Made by a program: the position numbers and the translations under genes
Shown here: positions 49,295-53,512 of the stretch, piece after piece
How positions within the stretch are numbered: the first letter of the stretch is position 1
Layout: every line of letters begins with the position of its first letter
Notes under the pieces: generated by a model
Databases searched by the model: none
Told to the model about the DNA's origin: nothing
Seen by the model: only the letters and a program-made list of their open reading frames with translations
Source: Faecalibacterium prausnitzii
GTDB taxonomy: Bacteria > Bacillota > Clostridia > Oscillospirales > Ruminococcaceae
DNA: 64,000 nucleotides
NCBI RefSeq assembly: GCF_003287405.1
Contig: NZ_PRLD01000006.1
Span: 1-64,000 of the forward strand
Direction of reading: 5' to 3'

Positions 49295-49370
49295 GGACGG
49301 TTAGCTCAGCTGGTAGAGCATCTGCTTGACGTGCAGGAGGTCACAGGTTCGAGTCCTGTACCGTCCACCA
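49295..49370 (+). tRNA. tRNA-Val (anticodon GAC)
   Basis: The 76-base gene folds into a full cloverleaf. Acceptor arms are GGACGGT and ACCGTCC, the D arm GCTCAGCTGGTAGAGC, and the anticodon loop TTGACGT, reading GAC for valine GUC/GUU codons. The T arm is CAGG-TTCGAGT-CCTG, and the CCA end is encoded. It marks the left border of the accessory island. A 17-base stretch of its 3' half reappears inverted at 52232-52248. Confidence 0.97.
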
Positions 49371-49378
49371 TACAGTTC

Positions 49379-49425
49379 GTACTCGAACCCGATTCTTTAC
49401 GAAAAAGGGTTCGGGTACGTTTTTT
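49379..49425 (+). terminator. tRNA terminator
   Basis: GTACTCGAACCC (49379-49390) pairs with GGGTTCGGGTAC (49407-49418) with one wobble, followed by GTTTTTTG. Confidence 0.88.
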
Positions 49426-49474
49426 GTTTACAGGAGGTTCTGCGAAAGGACTACTCGGAACAGTAAACGAGCAA

Positions 49475-49514
49475 AGGCAGGGTATCACCATGACGGTGGT
49501 ATCCTGCCTTTTTG
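49475..49514 (+). terminator. Hairpin terminator, shared with 52406
   Basis: A 15-bp stem with wobble pairs (49475-49489 with 49495-49509) precedes five T. A close copy lies at 52406-52440, so this hairpin belongs to the mobile modules of the island. Confidence 0.75.
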
Positions 49515-49525
49515 CTTTGCGGAAT

Positions 49526-49713
49526 CAAGTTCGCTTTGTGCGAACTTGGTCGTCCCCCTATATGGCGCGTTTGGGAGTAGTCGCTGCGTACGTGCGTACC
49601 GGGAGCCTGTACACCTCTGACAAGGTGTAACACACTAGACTTTGTGCCAAAGTCTGTGTGCCAAGGGGTCAAGCCCCTTAGAATCCCTGCGGAGCGTGTA
49701 CGCACGTACGCAG
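49526..49713. ncRNA. Highly structured noncoding block, possible oriT or RNA
   Basis: A 9-bp hairpin (49526-49548) is followed by a perfect 16-bp outer stem, CTGCGTACGTGCGTAC (49584-49599) with 49698-49713. The outer stem encloses three more hairpins: TACACCT/AGGTGTA (49610-49629), a two-part stem CACAC plus AGACTTTG (49631-49660), and AAGGGG/CCCCTT (49663-49679). Almost every base is in or next to a helix. There is no T-run at the end and no coding frame of interest. A transfer origin, an attachment site or a structured RNA are all possible; I label it ncRNA only as a best fit. Confidence 0.5.
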
Positions 49714-49749
49714 AAAAATGGCAAAATTTCACTATATCGGGGTGTTCTT

Positions 49750-49775
49750 TCATGGTGGAGTGTGGTATACTCGGC
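49750..49775 (+). promoter_or_regulatory. Extended -10 promoter, shared with the MATE gene
   Basis: GTGTGGTATACTCGG gives an extended -10 (TGG TATACT, about 49765-49770). Nearly the same stretch, GGTGTGGTATACTTGG, precedes the MATE gene near 53580. The two cargo genes thus use related promoter modules. Confidence 0.6.
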
Positions 49776-49813
49776 TTAGCCCAGTAAATCGGAGTTTGAC
49801 GAGGTAAAAGAAT

Positions 49814-50431
49814 ATGAATGGAAAACATCTATTTCTTACATCTGCAGGGTTGACCGATAAGATGAAAGAGAAATTCTTTGATATTATTGGAAAGTGTCCG
49901 AAGGATGTGAAAGTGCTTTATATTCCAACAGCTGGCATTGAAACAGATGGTGCAAGAGAGTCGCTTGCAATATGTTTTCATGAACTCTTTCTAATGGGAA
50001 TTCAGTACGAAAATATATTAGTGTACAATCTGGAATTAATTCTTTCAAAAGACTATCAAAGAACCTATTCTTCGTATGTTACAACCCCGTTTATGCTTAC
50101 AAGGCTATTAACTTTTGAAGAATTAAACCAATTTGATGCTGTTTTTGTCAGTGGTGGTGATGTATCTGTGCTTTGTCGTGAAATGTCTAGAACTGGTTTT
50201 GATAGAATACTTAATAATGCAATTAAAAACGGACTTATATATGTCGGAATCAGTGCAGGAAGTATGTATGCGGCGGGAAATTTAACAGATGGATTACATA
50301 TTATTGACAATCCTATTATCCCCCATTGGAATGGTTCTGAAACAACAGTATTACCGAACGGCAAAGATGAGATTAAGCTTGCTGATGGAAAAGCTGTTTA
50401 TGTAGAGGATAATTACATGAGTGTAATATGA
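49814..50431 (+). CDS. S51-family peptidase-like / class I glutamine amidotransferase-like protein
   Basis: The 205-residue protein has the peptidase E fold: LFLTSAG at the start, FVSGGDVSVLCREM near 111-124, and the nucleophile elbow GISAGS with Ser near residue 147, followed by a His in IIPHWNG. S51 enzymes cleave Asp-X dipeptides; related proteins act in cyanophycin or resistance pathways. The base composition is much richer in A and T than its neighbours, so it was acquired. It has its own promoter and GAGGTAAAAG before the ATG. Cargo of the island. Confidence 0.82.
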   Translation: MNGKHLFLTSAGLTDKMKEKFFDIIGKCPKDVKVLYIPTAGIETDGARESLAICFHELFLMGIQYENILVYNLELILSKDYQRTYSSYVTTPFMLTRLLTFEELNQFDAVFVSGGDVSVLCREMSRTGFDRILNNAIKNGLIYVGISAGSMYAAGNLTDGLHIIDNPIIPHWNGSETTVLPNGKDEIKLADGKAVYVEDNYMSVI

Positions 50432-50476
50432 TGCACATGTAGGATTAGTCAAATTCCAGTTTGCCGTACTCGTTCC

Positions 50477-50572
50477 AGCAGGGTTTGGGGCAGGCACGCC
50501 CCAACAAGAAGCTGTCCCAAAGTGGCAAGAATTTTCAAGAATTGAAAATTTGTGGCCACGGGACGATTCTTG
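50477..50572. repeat. Dispersed mobile unit, copy 2
   Basis: The unit starts AGCAGGGTTTGGGG with a TTGGGG/CCCCAA hairpin, then CAACAAGA. GTCCC (50514-50518) and GGGAC (50560-50564) flank the palindrome ATTTTCAA-GAA-TTGAAAAT (50531-50549), and CGATTCTTGC follows. It lies just upstream of the second serine recombinase and is probably the left end of that element. Confidence 0.7.
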
Positions 50573-50629
50573 CTCTCAGCTTTTTCGCTGCGTTTCGCAA
50601 TTTTCACATTTCAATCTGCTCGCAGATTG

Positions 50630-50658
50630 TTGACAAGCTGCGCTTGACCCGATACTAT
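50630..50658 (+). promoter_or_regulatory. Promoter of the second serine recombinase
   Basis: TTGACA (50630-50635), 17 bp, TACTAT (50653-50658). A perfect hairpin AATCTGC-TC-GCAGATT (50614-50629) abuts the -35 and could bind a regulator. Confidence 0.75.
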
Positions 50659-50694
50659 AAAGGCAAGTCGAATACGCGCCAAGGAGGTGCAACC

Positions 50695-52287
50695 ATGACC
50701 GCCGTGATCTACGCCCGCTATTCTTCCGACAGCCAGCGCGAAGCGTCCATTGAAGGGCAGCTGCGCGACTGCAAGGACTACGCCGAGAAGAACGGTATCA
50801 CCGTGGTCGGCACCTACATCGACCGTGCCTACTCCGCCAAGACGGATGACCGCCCGGACTTCCAGAGGATGATTAAGGACAGCGCAAAGAAAATCTTCGA
50901 TGTAGTTCTGGTCTGGAAGCTCGACCGCTTTGCCCGGAATCGGTTCGATGCCGTGAACTACAAGTACCAGCTGGAAAAGAACGGCGTCCATCTGGTGTCT
51001 GCCATGGAACCCATTTCGCAGGGGCCTGAAGGCATTATGGTGGAGAGTATGCTTATCGGCATGGCGGAATACTATTCCGCCGAACTTGCCCTGAAAGTAG
51101 CGCGCGGTGAGCGCGAAAATGCCCTCCAGTGCAAGTACAACGGCGGTATCGTTCCGCTGGGCTTCACCATTGGCAAGGAGGACAGACTGTACCATATCGA
51201 CCCGGAGACGGCTCCCATTGTGCAGGAGATTTTTACCCGGTACGCCAACGGCGAGCCTGCCGAGAAAATCGCAGCATCCCTGAACGAGCGAGGGCTGCGC
51301 ACCCGTACCGGCAAGCCTTTTGTCAAGAACAGCTTCTTCCAGATTTTCCGGAACCGCCGTTACATAGGTGAATACCGATATAAGGACATCGTGACACCGG
51401 GCGGCATTCCGGCCATCGTGGACGAGGACTTGTTCGACCGGGTGCAGCAGCGTTTCGAGCAAAATAGGATTGCCCATGGTCGACCCGCAAAAGAGGATGT
51501 GAGCTATCTGCTGACCACCAAGCTGTTCTGCGGCAAGTGCGGCACCCTGATGGGCGGCGAGAGCGGCACCAGCCACATGGGAAACACCTACTATTACTAC
51601 AAGTGCGGCAACGCCAAACGCCACGGCAAGGCGCATTGCGACCTGAAAGCCATCCGCAAGGAGCCGCTGGAACGGTTCGTGGTGGACACTGCCATTAAGG
51701 TGATTTTCAGCGATGAAATCATCGAACGGCTGATAGATTTGGTCATGGAAGCCCAGCAGCAGGAGAACACCCGGCTGCCTGTTCTGAAAGAGCAACTCCG
51801 GGATACGGAGAAGCGGCTGGCAAACCTTCTGGAAGCCATTGAACAGGGCATCCTGACCCCGACCACCAAGCAGCGGTTGGACGAGCTGGAAGCCCGGAAA
51901 GAAGCCCTGAACACCAGCATTTTGGAAGAAGAGCTGAAAAAGCCCGTCCTGACCCGTGAGTGGATTCGGTTCTGGCTTGAAAAATTCCGCAAGGGTGACG
52001 TGGGCAGCACGGAACACCAGCGGCAGATCATTGATACCTTTGTCAACTCGATCTACGTCTTTGATGACCGGGTCGTGCTCAATTTCAACTTCACGGACGA
52101 TTCCAAAACCATCTCCCGTGAAGAGGTGTTGGGTTCGAGTGCTGTGGAGAATGCTCCACCAAAACAAGAGTCCCTGACTTCGGTCAGGGGCTTTTTTGTT
52201 GCGTCATCCACTAACCCACGTCAAAGCAGGTCGGTACAGGACTCGAACAGCACGTGCCGAGCGCAGCGAAGGCAATCAAAGCCCTAG
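50695..52287 (+). CDS. Large serine recombinase
   Basis: ATG 50695 follows AAGGAGGTG; the longer frame is noncoding repeat. The 530-residue protein has the catalytic Ser in YARYSSDSQRE, the recombinase domain, a zinc ribbon (LFCGKCGTLMGGES...YYKCGNAKRHGKAHC), and a helical region near 370-420. It is clearly related to the enzyme at 20431 along its whole length. Its last 40 residues run through a terminator (52172-52197) and beyond, and look non-native (VASSTNPRQSRSVQDSNS). It probably moves the unit that begins at 50477. Confidence 0.94.
   Translation: MTAVIYARYSSDSQREASIEGQLRDCKDYAEKNGITVVGTYIDRAYSAKTDDRPDFQRMIKDSAKKIFDVVLVWKLDRFARNRFDAVNYKYQLEKNGVHLVSAMEPISQGPEGIMVESMLIGMAEYYSAELALKVARGERENALQCKYNGGIVPLGFTIGKEDRLYHIDPETAPIVQEIFTRYANGEPAEKIAASLNERGLRTRTGKPFVKNSFFQIFRNRRYIGEYRYKDIVTPGGIPAIVDEDLFDRVQQRFEQNRIAHGRPAKEDVSYLLTTKLFCGKCGTLMGGESGTSHMGNTYYYYKCGNAKRHGKAHCDLKAIRKEPLERFVVDTAIKVIFSDEIIERLIDLVMEAQQQENTRLPVLKEQLRDTEKRLANLLEAIEQGILTPTTKQRLDELEARKEALNTSILEEELKKPVLTREWIRFWLEKFRKGDVGSTEHQRQIIDTFVNSIYVFDDRVVLNFNFTDDSKTISREEVLGSSAVENAPPKQESLTSVRGFFVASSTNPRQSRSVQDSNSTCRAQRRQSKP
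52172..52197 (+). terminator. Terminator with UUCG loop in the recombinase 3' end
   Basis: CCCTGAC-TTCG-GTCAGGG then CTTTTTT. The same terminator with its flank GCGTCATCCAC occurs after the MATE gene at 55021-55047. Confidence 0.85.
52232..52248 (-). repeat. 17-bp copy of the tRNA-Val 3' half (inverted)
   Basis: On the minus strand GTTCGAGTCCTGTACCG is identical to tRNA-Val bases 49347-49363. Such tRNA pieces are typical of attachment sites of integrating elements. The orientation is opposite to that expected for a simple attL/attR pair. Confidence 0.55.
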
Positions 52288-52300
52288 CAGGGCTTTGATT
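52261..52300. repeat. Perfect 12-bp hairpin related to 324-358
   Basis: AATCAAAGCCCT (52274-52285) pairs with 52289-52300 around AGC. Together with the preceding GCGCAGCG tract it matches the insert in copy 1 of the mobile unit (GCGCAGCG...AAAGCCCC hairpin). Confidence 0.5.
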
Positions 52301-52405
52301 AGTGCGCGGTTTCCAACGCGTAGGAATGTCTACCAAGAAAGATGCCGCTAGACCATTCGGTCTGGGGATTTTTTGTTGTGACAGGACGAGAATAAAAATA
52401 AGCAA

Positions 52406-52445
52406 AGGCAGAGTATCACTATGGTAGTGGTATCCTGCCTTTTGT
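52406..52445 (+). terminator. Hairpin terminator, copy of 49475
   Basis: A 15-bp stem (52406-52420 with 52426-52440) before TTTGTTTT; about 80% identical in sequence to the hairpin after the tRNA. It may also end the cupin gene's convergent transcript. Confidence 0.7.
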
Positions 52446-52459
52446 TTTGATATGTTTTA

Positions 52460-52813
52460 TCAGTAGATCACAGCATCCGTTGCAGTATAGCCTTCGAGAG
52501 AATTCTCCTTGACCTGAATACAAATATAAGTGATCTCAGAATTGCTTGCAGCAAAGAACTGACGTTTTGCCACGGGAGAAATCCTCAGCCAGTCGCCTGC
52601 TGTAAGGCTGATTTCTTCGCCATCGATAACGACCTTGCCTTTGCCGGAAAGAACACCGTAGATTTCCTCATTTGCCTTGTGGGAGTGGACAAACGGAACA
52701 TTTGCTCCCGCAGGAAGCGTATTCAGGCTGATCTCCGCACCAGTCAGGGCGAGCTTTTCATGAAGCTCCGTCCGATTTTCTTTTCCAACTGTCATTTTTG
52801 TGTAGCTTGCCAT
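52460..52813 (-). CDS. Small cupin-domain protein
   Basis: ATG 52813 follows GGAGGTGC and gives 117 residues. The cupin motifs are PFVHSHKANEEIYGVLSGKGKVVIDGE (metal-binding His/Glu) and ISPVAKRQFFAASNSEITYICIQ. It is single-domain and cytoplasmic. Divergent from an HxlR regulator, a common pair in which the enzyme-like protein answers to oxidative or electrophile stress. Substrate unknown. Confidence 0.85.
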   Translation of the reverse strand: MASYTKMTVGKENRTELHEKLALTGAEISLNTLPAGANVPFVHSHKANEEIYGVLSGKGKVVIDGEEISLTAGDWLRISPVAKRQFFAASNSEITYICIQVKENSLEGYTATDAVIY

Positions 52814-52859
52814 TGTAAGCACCTCCATTTTGATTCGCAATCTTTCATTGCCTGCGCTA

Positions 52860-52943
52860 AGTATAGAAGCTCGCACATTCAAAAACAAGTACGCACCTTT
52901 TTGTAACTGTACACTCAAAAATAAATGTGCTATACTATACACA
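52860..52943. promoter_or_regulatory. Divergent promoters of the cupin and HxlR genes
   Basis: Minus strand: TTGTTT (52883-52888), 17 bp, TATACT (52860-52865). Plus strand: extended -10 TGC TATACT within TGTGCTATACTATACACA (52926-52943), an imperfect palindrome that could be the HxlR operator. Confidence 0.6.
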
Positions 52944-52955
52944 GAGGTGACTGAT

Positions 52956-53288
52956 ATGCGTACAAAAGAAGAACTGCCGGAATGTCCGGTTGCAACAGCA
53001 GTATCCCTGATTGGCGGAAAATGGAAACTCTTGCTTCTGCGCAATCTGAAAGAGCGCCCATGGAGATTCAATGAGTTGCAAAGAAGCATCGATGGAATCT
53101 CGCAGAAAGTTTTGACCGAGAGCTTAAGACAGATGATTGATGATGGGCTTGCCTACCGCCGTGATTATCACGAGAACCCTCCCAAAGTAGAATATGGGTT
53201 GACCGATCTCGGAACGGAAATGTTACCAATCGTCAATGCACTTGCAGACTTTGGCAATTACTATAAATCAGTCGTTGATCGGTCATGA
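52956..53288 (+). CDS. HxlR-family transcriptional regulator
   Basis: ATG 52956 follows AGAGGTGA and gives 110 residues. The winged helix begins after the conserved Cys in ELPECPVATAVSLIGGKWKLLLLRNL and includes RFNELQRSIDGISQKVLTESLRQMIDDGL and EYGLTDLG. The single conserved Cys is the redox- or electrophile-sensing site in several members. It probably controls the divergent cupin gene. Confidence 0.92.
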   Translation: MRTKEELPECPVATAVSLIGGKWKLLLLRNLKERPWRFNELQRSIDGISQKVLTESLRQMIDDGLAYRRDYHENPPKVEYGLTDLGTEMLPIVNALADFGNYYKSVVDRS

Positions 53289-53300
53289 TCGATATTATGA

Positions 53301-53399
53301 AGCAGGGCTTGGGGCTTCGCACGCCCCAACAAGAAAGCTGTCCCAAGGGGCTGGAAATTTTCAAGAATTGAAAATTTGTGACCACGGGACGGTTCTTGC
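53301..53399. repeat. Dispersed mobile unit, copy 3
   Basis: AGCAGGGCTTGGGG with TTGGGG/CCCCAA hairpin, CAACAAGA, then GTCCC (53340-53344), the palindrome ATTTTCAA-GAA-TTGAAAAT (53357-53375), GGGAC (53386-53390) and GGTTCTTGC. It is followed at once by the 3' end of a recombinase gene. Confidence 0.7.
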
Positions 53400-53433
53400 T
53401 CTCACGTTTTCCCTCAACTTTTGCAATTATTGT

Positions 53434-53512
53434 TGAAGAAGTTTTAGGTTCGACTGCTGTTGACAATGCTCCACCACATCCCCAGACCATTCGGTCTGGG
53501 GATTTTTTGTGG
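53434..53512 (+). pseudogene. 3' remnant of a third serine recombinase with its terminator
   Basis: The frame reads EEVLGSTAVDNAPPHPQT, matching EEVLGSSAVENAPPKQES at the C-terminus of the recombinase at 50695. The catalytic and DNA-binding parts are gone. A terminator (CCCCAGACC-ATTC-GGTCTGGGG-A-TTTTTT, 53480-53508) follows. Joined directly to the left-end unit at 53301, it looks like an internal-deletion derivative of the element. Confidence 0.75.

Follow-up and report, generated by a model that had tools for sequence, protein, structure and literature searches.

Organisation of the locus

The window is the whole 64,000-nucleotide stretch of Faecalibacterium prausnitzii DNA analysed here, taken from contig C61 of a source genome of 3.03 Mb. 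An earlier note, made from the sequence of the window, had drawn attention to a multi-hairpin block at 49475–49713 and placed it behind a tRNA-Val gene. Both are present, and the features of the region are as follows.

49295–49370, plus strand: tRNA-Val(GAC), the integration target; its last seven bases, TCCACCA (49364–49370), form the left direct repeat
49371–52161, no strand: mobile island (predicted IME) of 2.79 kb, starting after the CCA of the tRNA; TCCACCA recurs at 52155–52161 as the right direct repeat
49378–49425, plus strand: T1, terminator-like hairpin and T6 (by eye; the terminator scan lists part of it only)
49473–49511, plus strand: H1, terminator-like hairpin with a T-run (terminator scan)
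49525–49548, no strand: H2, palindrome to the left of the outer stem
49584–49599 and 49698–49713, no strand: ARM, perfect 16-bp outer stem (sequence search)
49610–49629, no strand: hairpin that, on the nicked strand, follows the predicted nick on its 3' side (folding of both strands)
49624–49663, minus strand: predicted RS_A-type MOBV oriT core, an inverted repeat and AAAGTCTAGTGTG/TTACACC (slash, predicted nick)
about 49631–49660: central hairpin of the block, enclosed by the ARM stem (folding)
49663–49679, no strand: G+C-rich hairpin AAGGGG/CCCCTT flanking the oriT core (folding, alignment)
49735–49806, plus strand: P, conserved region with TATACT at 49766–49771, ending just before the cargo gene
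49814–50431, plus strand: cargo gene for a peptidase S51 family protein of 205 aa; other copies have other genes in this slot
50477–50580, plus strand: S, conserved spacer from cargo to recombinase
50695–52287, plus strand: large serine recombinase with Resolvase, Recombinase and Zn-ribbon domains (domain scan)

The order along the island is tRNA, T1, H1, H2, ARM–RS_A–ARM, P, cargo, S, large serine recombinase and TCCACCA, with the cargo and recombinase genes as the two main ORFs of 49371–52161. The recombinase domains were scanned for in ORF 50461–52287, within which the start at 50695 was picked by eye from ribosome-binding site and frame. This frame crosses the right border at 52161, so that the C-terminus would vary with the insertion site or in a circle. 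No relaxase or coupling-protein gene was found in the island, nor any Mob_Pre or PF02534 match on contig C61. P is not listed by the promoter scan; the conservation of the leader ends here, and P may be the promoter driving the cargo slot.

A tandem second unit occupies 52162–53476, with a further copy of H1 (52401–52443) and, by eye, cupin-like and HxlR-like ORFs. Its S copy lies at 53301–53404, it ends in GGTTCGA..GCTCCACCA with TCCACCA at 53470–53476, and no recombinase was seen in it. Both S repeats contain, by eye, the inverted parts GGGGC..GCCCC and CAAGAA..TTCTTG, and S is found between cargo and recombinase in most of the islands mapped.

Borders and integration site

The left edge was placed at 49371 because the same sequence follows four tRNA types. 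On the right, similarity to the window stops at 52159–52166 in nine of the 13 loci with a window-like recombinase and continues past the border in four (L056, L058, L059 and L060). A search for right borders gave a match in 15 of 19 loci examined and none in four, the border reading TCCACCA in 13 and TCCACT in two (L061, L182). Beyond it, most copies have other sequence, terminator-like by eye, while some copies share it.

An empty site is available for the sister copy L055. In another genome, a tRNA-Ala(CGC) gene (L236) ends GGTCCACCA and is followed directly by the post-island sequence of L055. L232 and L233 have the same empty junction behind an incomplete tRNA; L235 has different sequence ahead of the shared terminator, and the match of L234 stops short of the junction. 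For both copies in the source genome, empty sites were searched for in relatives and not found: in G022, T1 of the same tRNA is followed by different content, and relatives have the right-hand flank of copy 2 at another place. Copies of the island occupy the TCCACCA that ends tRNA-Val or tRNA-Ala genes, with an empty site seen for the sister copy only. From the junction sequences of L236 and L055 it follows that the island enters between the tRNA and its terminator, and T1 would take over as terminator of the tRNA after insertion.

Structure of the folded block

The block folds far better than chance on both strands. Its minimum free energy is -116.9 kcal/mol on the plus strand and -110.3 on the minus strand (z-scores of -7.27 and -7.74), and none of 200 dinucleotide shuffles was as stable on either strand. 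The earlier description, of a perfect 16-bp outer stem enclosing three hairpins with two more to the left, is accurate throughout. The accompanying statement that no T-run explains the block is wrong for the hairpin at 49473–49511, which has one and is listed as terminator-like; T1 too is, by eye, a hairpin with six T, and is kept in all 19 rows of our leader alignment. Among the modules H2 comes first and ARM second, the RS_A core being enclosed between the two ARM arms, and CCCCCTATATGG stands at 49554–49565, just before the left ARM.

Nothing in Rfam accounts for the block, as had been claimed: in a scan of the window the tRNA alone reached its gathering score. A plasmid DNA similarity search with the whole block gave no match, and a phage search returned seven records, each covering 17–30% of the query at 81–93% identity, so that none of these three routes identified the block as a whole. 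The phage records (MT836952.1 and six others, all 'Bacteriophage sp.') are small unannotated contigs from human faeces with short stretches of the block.

The innermost hairpin resembles a MOBV transfer origin

On the minus strand of the central hairpin, AAAGTCTAGTGTG/TTACACC comes directly after the inverted repeat, so that the nick sequence TAGTGTG/TTA stands behind the repeat as in an RS_A site. The predicted nick lies on this strand between 49631 and 49630, a position assigned from the MOBV nick consensus and in agreement with the plasmid sites described below. The other mark of an RS_A site, a place just upstream of a mobV gene, is not seen on contig C61.

For comparison we took 12 plasmid stretches with MobV-type genes from 40 listed of 1979 matching records. 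A site of RS_A form is present in nine of the 12: in L159, L161, L162, L165, L169 and L170 by a strict search, and in L163, L164 and L168 by a looser search only. None was found in L160, L166 or L167, of which L166 begins 44 bases before the gene. From the first base of the 10-base nick sequence to the annotated start of mobV the distance is 53 bp in L162, 77 bp in L165, 4 bp in L169, where sequence and start overlap, and 50 bp in L170; the nick sequence reads TAGTGTG/CTA in L165 and TAGTGGG/TTA in L170. In L159 the site is 4.4 kb from mobV, and in L161 it is on the other strand.

Homologues with preserved pairing, proposed in the earlier note as a check, do exist. An alignment of the RS_A stem was made from 33 of 47 distinct cores, and 96.9% of its stem cells are paired; selecting the rows by their motif gives an advantage to the part of the stem that is fixed. 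Covariation is 0.081 versus 0.023 in shuffles, a value reached by none of 500, and three pairs have changed on both sides, as many as in five of 500 shuffles. Sequence identity extends past the stem to the nick side. Together with the alignment to sites at mobV genes of plasmids, this points to the innermost hairpin as a predicted RS_A-type MOBV oriT.

An RS_A site of Faecalibacterium form is also present at 2379–2413 of L158, the one IMG/VR contig matched. In L046, L047 and L049, RS_A sites lie between an HTH gene (283–308 aa) and restriction genes. We considered these genes as partners of RS_A and regard them as mere neighbours within the same elements; such defence islands may use the same transfer route.

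Copies in other genomes

Full-length copies of the block, defined as matches to at least positions 1–193 of the 195 in the query, number 27 and are found in 11 of 31 genomes of the same genus at 88–100% identity. There are none in 30 genomes outside the genus, one of which (G034) has a partial match. The oriT core occurs in 17 named stretches, of which 16 come from Faecalibacterium and one (L151) is a contig of a Collinsella MAG with a diverged leader copy, reflecting either transfer across phyla or a binning error.

In an alignment of 19 of the 27 full-length copies, the sequence common to different tRNA sites runs from the CCA end of the tRNA to about 49806, just short of the cargo gene. The preceding tRNA is Val(GAC) in ten, Val(CAC) in five, Ala(GGC) and Ala(CGC) in one each, and undetected in two (L016 and L018), where a 3' tRNA remnant is present. 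A window-like recombinase is found in 13 of 16 islands compared, being absent from L010, L052 and L057, and long open frames of 491–665 aa are seen in all nine of the 13 for which frames were mapped. Where aligned as separate pieces, recombinases are 91–95% and leaders 89–97% identical to the window; in L059 and L060 the two align as one piece, at 94% and 95%. L060 has the window island again, 95% identical across 2.83 kb and preceded by a tRNA remnant. The slot between P and S was recovered as 32 intervals (some places counted twice) that form ten cargo clusters.

The source genome has a second block copy at C61:145136–145333, 96% identical to the first. The corresponding unit, G000:C61:144982–146410 (L010 6983–8411), has, at the position of the recombinase, an ORF of 50 aa together with two small ones resembling, by eye, a toxin–antitoxin pair. 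Being devoid of a recombinase, this copy would need one in trans.

Association of the modules with relaxase genes

Linked relaxases in other genomes, a second check that had been suggested, were sought in 41 genomes, 21 of which have Mob_Pre. RS_A, ARM and H2 were located in the same 41 and their distances to Mob_Pre measured, with random expectations derived from positions in five complete genomes. An out-of-genus RS_A match (G049), out-of-genus Mob_Pre matches, second ARM arms and opposite-strand H2 duplicates were dropped before counting.

Lone copies of the modules do tend to lie near MobV-like genes. Lone H2 is within 500 bp of Mob_Pre in 28 of 33 cases (0.2–0.5% at random), mostly 214–391 bp from the match, with one copy at 1.1 kb and four far away. 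Lone ARM is within 1 kb in seven of ten (0.4–0.8% at random), a linkage that depends on Mob_Pre matches below the Pfam cut-off, which were kept; of the remaining copies, one goes with a class C remnant and two belong to ARM-only leaders (L137, L138). Lone RS_A is within 6 kb in 26 of 41 (1.9–3.5% at random), with seven farther away and eight on contigs without Mob_Pre. It counts against RS_A as oriT that in the genus it lies mostly 3–5 kb from the MobV gene rather than directly upstream, and that Mob_Pre is missing from the 6 kb around 15 of the 41 lone copies. Among copies with another module within 600 bp, Mob_Pre is within 6 kb of none of 20 H2, none of 36 ARM and none of 36 RS_A.

The relaxase genes concerned are of three classes. 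Class A are strong MobV proteins, with RS_A at a distance, and their profile matches the solved plasmid recombination enzyme 4lvi (E 2.5e-25). Class B proteins have 421 aa and are accompanied by H2 and by an oriT-like site near CATAGTGGGTTATTACACTT, 62–83 bp upstream. Class C carries the motif HLDESTPHIH and matches Mob_Pre below the Pfam cut-off (E 1.4e-4 to 6.4e-3). In profile comparisons with class A, homology is clear for class B (probability 99.2%) and weak for class C (7.9%). At least nine ORFs (L012, L067, L068, L069, L071, L072, L079, L083 and L088) appear to be partial or on the wrong strand, and their tree positions and labels were left unused.

H2 precedes five class B ORFs by 167–258 bp and two class A ORFs by 235 and 316 bp. 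ARM hairpins precede the class C ORFs of L050, L133, L135 and L136 by 86–365 bp (L134, with a broken gene, being left out) and the class B-like ORF in L139 by 146–182 bp; they also lie upstream of some class A genes. The ARM positions before class A and class B-like genes make uncertain the simple scheme of one site per relaxase class. The source genome itself has five Mob_Pre matches, class A and B included, and six coupling-protein (PF02534) matches, so that mobilisation by a helper appears possible; class C is represented there by a remnant only, beside ARM at G000:C70.

Some observations on H2 and ARM count against the composite reading. H2 is only a palindrome adjoining the class B site, and the class B nick-like sequence was not seen in the block of the window. 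The arms of ARM do show paired changes across contexts (28 arm pairs, the palindrome being counted on both strands). Their loop is 97–105 bases long in the composites, because RS_A has been inserted, against 7–38 elsewhere, and a loop of this length may spoil ARM as a hairpin site. We hypothesise that the block carries candidate sites for three relaxase classes.

Other leaders combine the same modules differently. A second type (L042, L043, L044, L048 and L181) has RS_A, a reversed class B site and the ARM hairpin in series, the class B site copy being 50–55 bp long and 93–98% identical; in the four other than L044, whose genomes were searched for Mob_Pre, none lies within 6 kb. A third type (L137, L138) has ARM without RS_A and H2. 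Since the leader types share modules, they would appear to draw on one module stock, and this is the main reason for reading the block as a composite.

Taken together, of the possibilities raised in the earlier note (a new structured RNA, a transfer origin or a folded recombination site) it is the transfer origin that gains support, from the RS_A form of the inner hairpin and the homologous modules beside MobV-type relaxase genes elsewhere in the genus. We consider it very probable, arguing from sequence, that a relaxase-less (oriT-only) IME of 2.79 kb has its mobilisation region in this block, which we read as a composite, partly nested oriT. The island has its own recombinase and a specific site with an empty counterpart (the latter for L055 only), as relaxase-less IMEs do.

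Alternative interpretations

A mixed reading, compatible with an oriT at the core, is not the likelier one but carries appreciable weight. Here RS_A alone would be the oriT, while H2 and ARM would be operators for relaxases or accessory proteins and in the island merely tune the cargo promoter. The position of ARM directly before P in leaders of the window type and in ARM-only leaders (and, by eye, in those of the second type) agrees with this, as does its occurrence upstream of relaxase genes, expected of an autoregulatory operator. H2, however, is about 190 bp from P, and the class B oriT-like site in second-type leaders would be left unexplained.

Alternatively, the block could be what is left, without present function, of a larger element that has decayed and no longer has its relaxase. 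A partly deleted leader in a tandem copy (L059 7783–7958), the class C remnant beside ARM at G000:C70 and the three of 16 islands lacking the window-like recombinase all fit with decay. We nevertheless find this improbable in view of the 27 full-length copies, with 88–100% identity across 11 of 31 genomes, the 13 of 16 islands that do match the recombinase, with long open frames in all nine for which these were mapped, and the repetition of one compact architecture with ten cargo clusters.

More doubtful still is the idea that the leader of the island is transcribed into a structured noncoding RNA or a riboregulator. The new-RNA option draws on the strong fold of both strands (z -7.3 and -7.7) and on the paired changes in the RS_A and ARM stems, yet both are common to inverted repeats in DNA, of which an equal fold on the two strands is indeed expected. 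Moreover, no Rfam match reaches the gathering score, the terminator-like hairpins T1 (by eye) and H1 stand between tRNA and block, the modules recur next to relaxase genes and with different order, orientation and spacing, and sequence identity is not confined to the stem but reaches the nick side beyond it. Hardly credible, finally, is a folded recombination or attachment site (attC-like), or an RS_A serving solely for plasmid-type cointegration by Pre: passages of PMC5714925 do name RS_A as recombination site A of Pre proteins, but integration is at the TCCACCA of the tRNA end, more than 100 bp from the block, which is internal to the integrated copies.

Comparison with known systems

The predicted composite oriT has its closest counterpart in the MOBV oriT/RS_A of the pMV158 plasmid family. 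It shares with that site the repeat CACAC..ACTTTG/CAAAGT..GTGTG followed by TAGTGTG/TTA, and further hairpins nearby, but differs in having no adjoining relaxase gene, in lying inside a second 16-bp stem and in being accompanied by H2. The family name is also given in passages of PMC5714925.

IMEs with an oriT alone ('iOriT', mobile genomic islands) are known (parts of PMC5704250 and PMC11389934). As in those described there, we see a recombinase of the element's own, an oriT, site-specific integration and no relaxase or secretion gene; in contrast to them, the island here is of 2.8 kb, with a serine recombinase, a MOBV-type oriT, several oriT-like modules per cassette and a slot for one cargo gene. 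Tn4451, likewise a clostridial mobilisable element with a serine recombinase and MOBV, is listed in parts of PMC5704250 with a MobV relaxase, whereas none was found in the island. A streptococcal IME has a MobV mobilisation module with a pMV158-like oriT, which functions when cloned in a plasmid (parts of PMC5090054).

Staphylococcus plasmids such as pWBG762 carry two or three oriT mimics of different subtypes, the several oriTs of one hitchhiker matching different helpers (parts of PMC8136818 and PMC4652767). There, as far as these parts go, the carriers are plasmids and the subtypes belong to one pWBG749-like family, unlike an integrated island with modules linked to several MobV-like classes, one nested in another. 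Relaxase-less islands and multi-oriT plasmids are thus already known, and what appears to be new is the nested composite on such an island: the literature searched yielded no case of a composite oriT, nested in this way, on an island that has a serine recombinase, targets a tRNA gene and can exchange its cargo gene. The earlier note had thought the block the best candidate for an undescribed element unless it matched a known oriT; its core does match one, and it is the combination of modules that may be new.

A possible route of transfer

The following sequence of events can be envisaged. The serine recombinase would catalyse integration of the island at the 3'-terminal TCCACCA of a tRNA-Val or tRNA-Ala gene, where T1 would then replace the terminator of the tRNA. 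A MobV-type relaxase from another element would bind the RS_A-like inverted repeat and, judging by the consensus, nick the minus strand at 49631/49630. The nicked strand could leave through the type IV secretion system of a helper, in a genome with both MobV relaxases and coupling proteins. H2 and ARM, common to the neighbourhoods of other MobV-like relaxases, might widen the set of usable relaxases, this being the least certain step, and the promoter at the right edge would drive any gene placed in the cargo slot.

More tentatively, we propose a one-gene cassette system in a major gut genus, in which the sites of three MobV-like classes are gathered in one folded, partly nested cassette, so that many co-resident elements could mobilise it, and in which a slot behind a conserved promoter swaps its cargo.

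Many genomic islands are without visible means of transfer. Here a compact case is repeated in a genus of the human gut, in which the transfer signal is readable, likely helper enzymes are encoded in the same genome and each module is short enough for an oligonucleotide. If the interpretation is true, the stacking of oriTs known from staphylococcal plasmids would serve integrated islands too, and would offer a mechanism for the exchange of single genes among Faecalibacterium strains.
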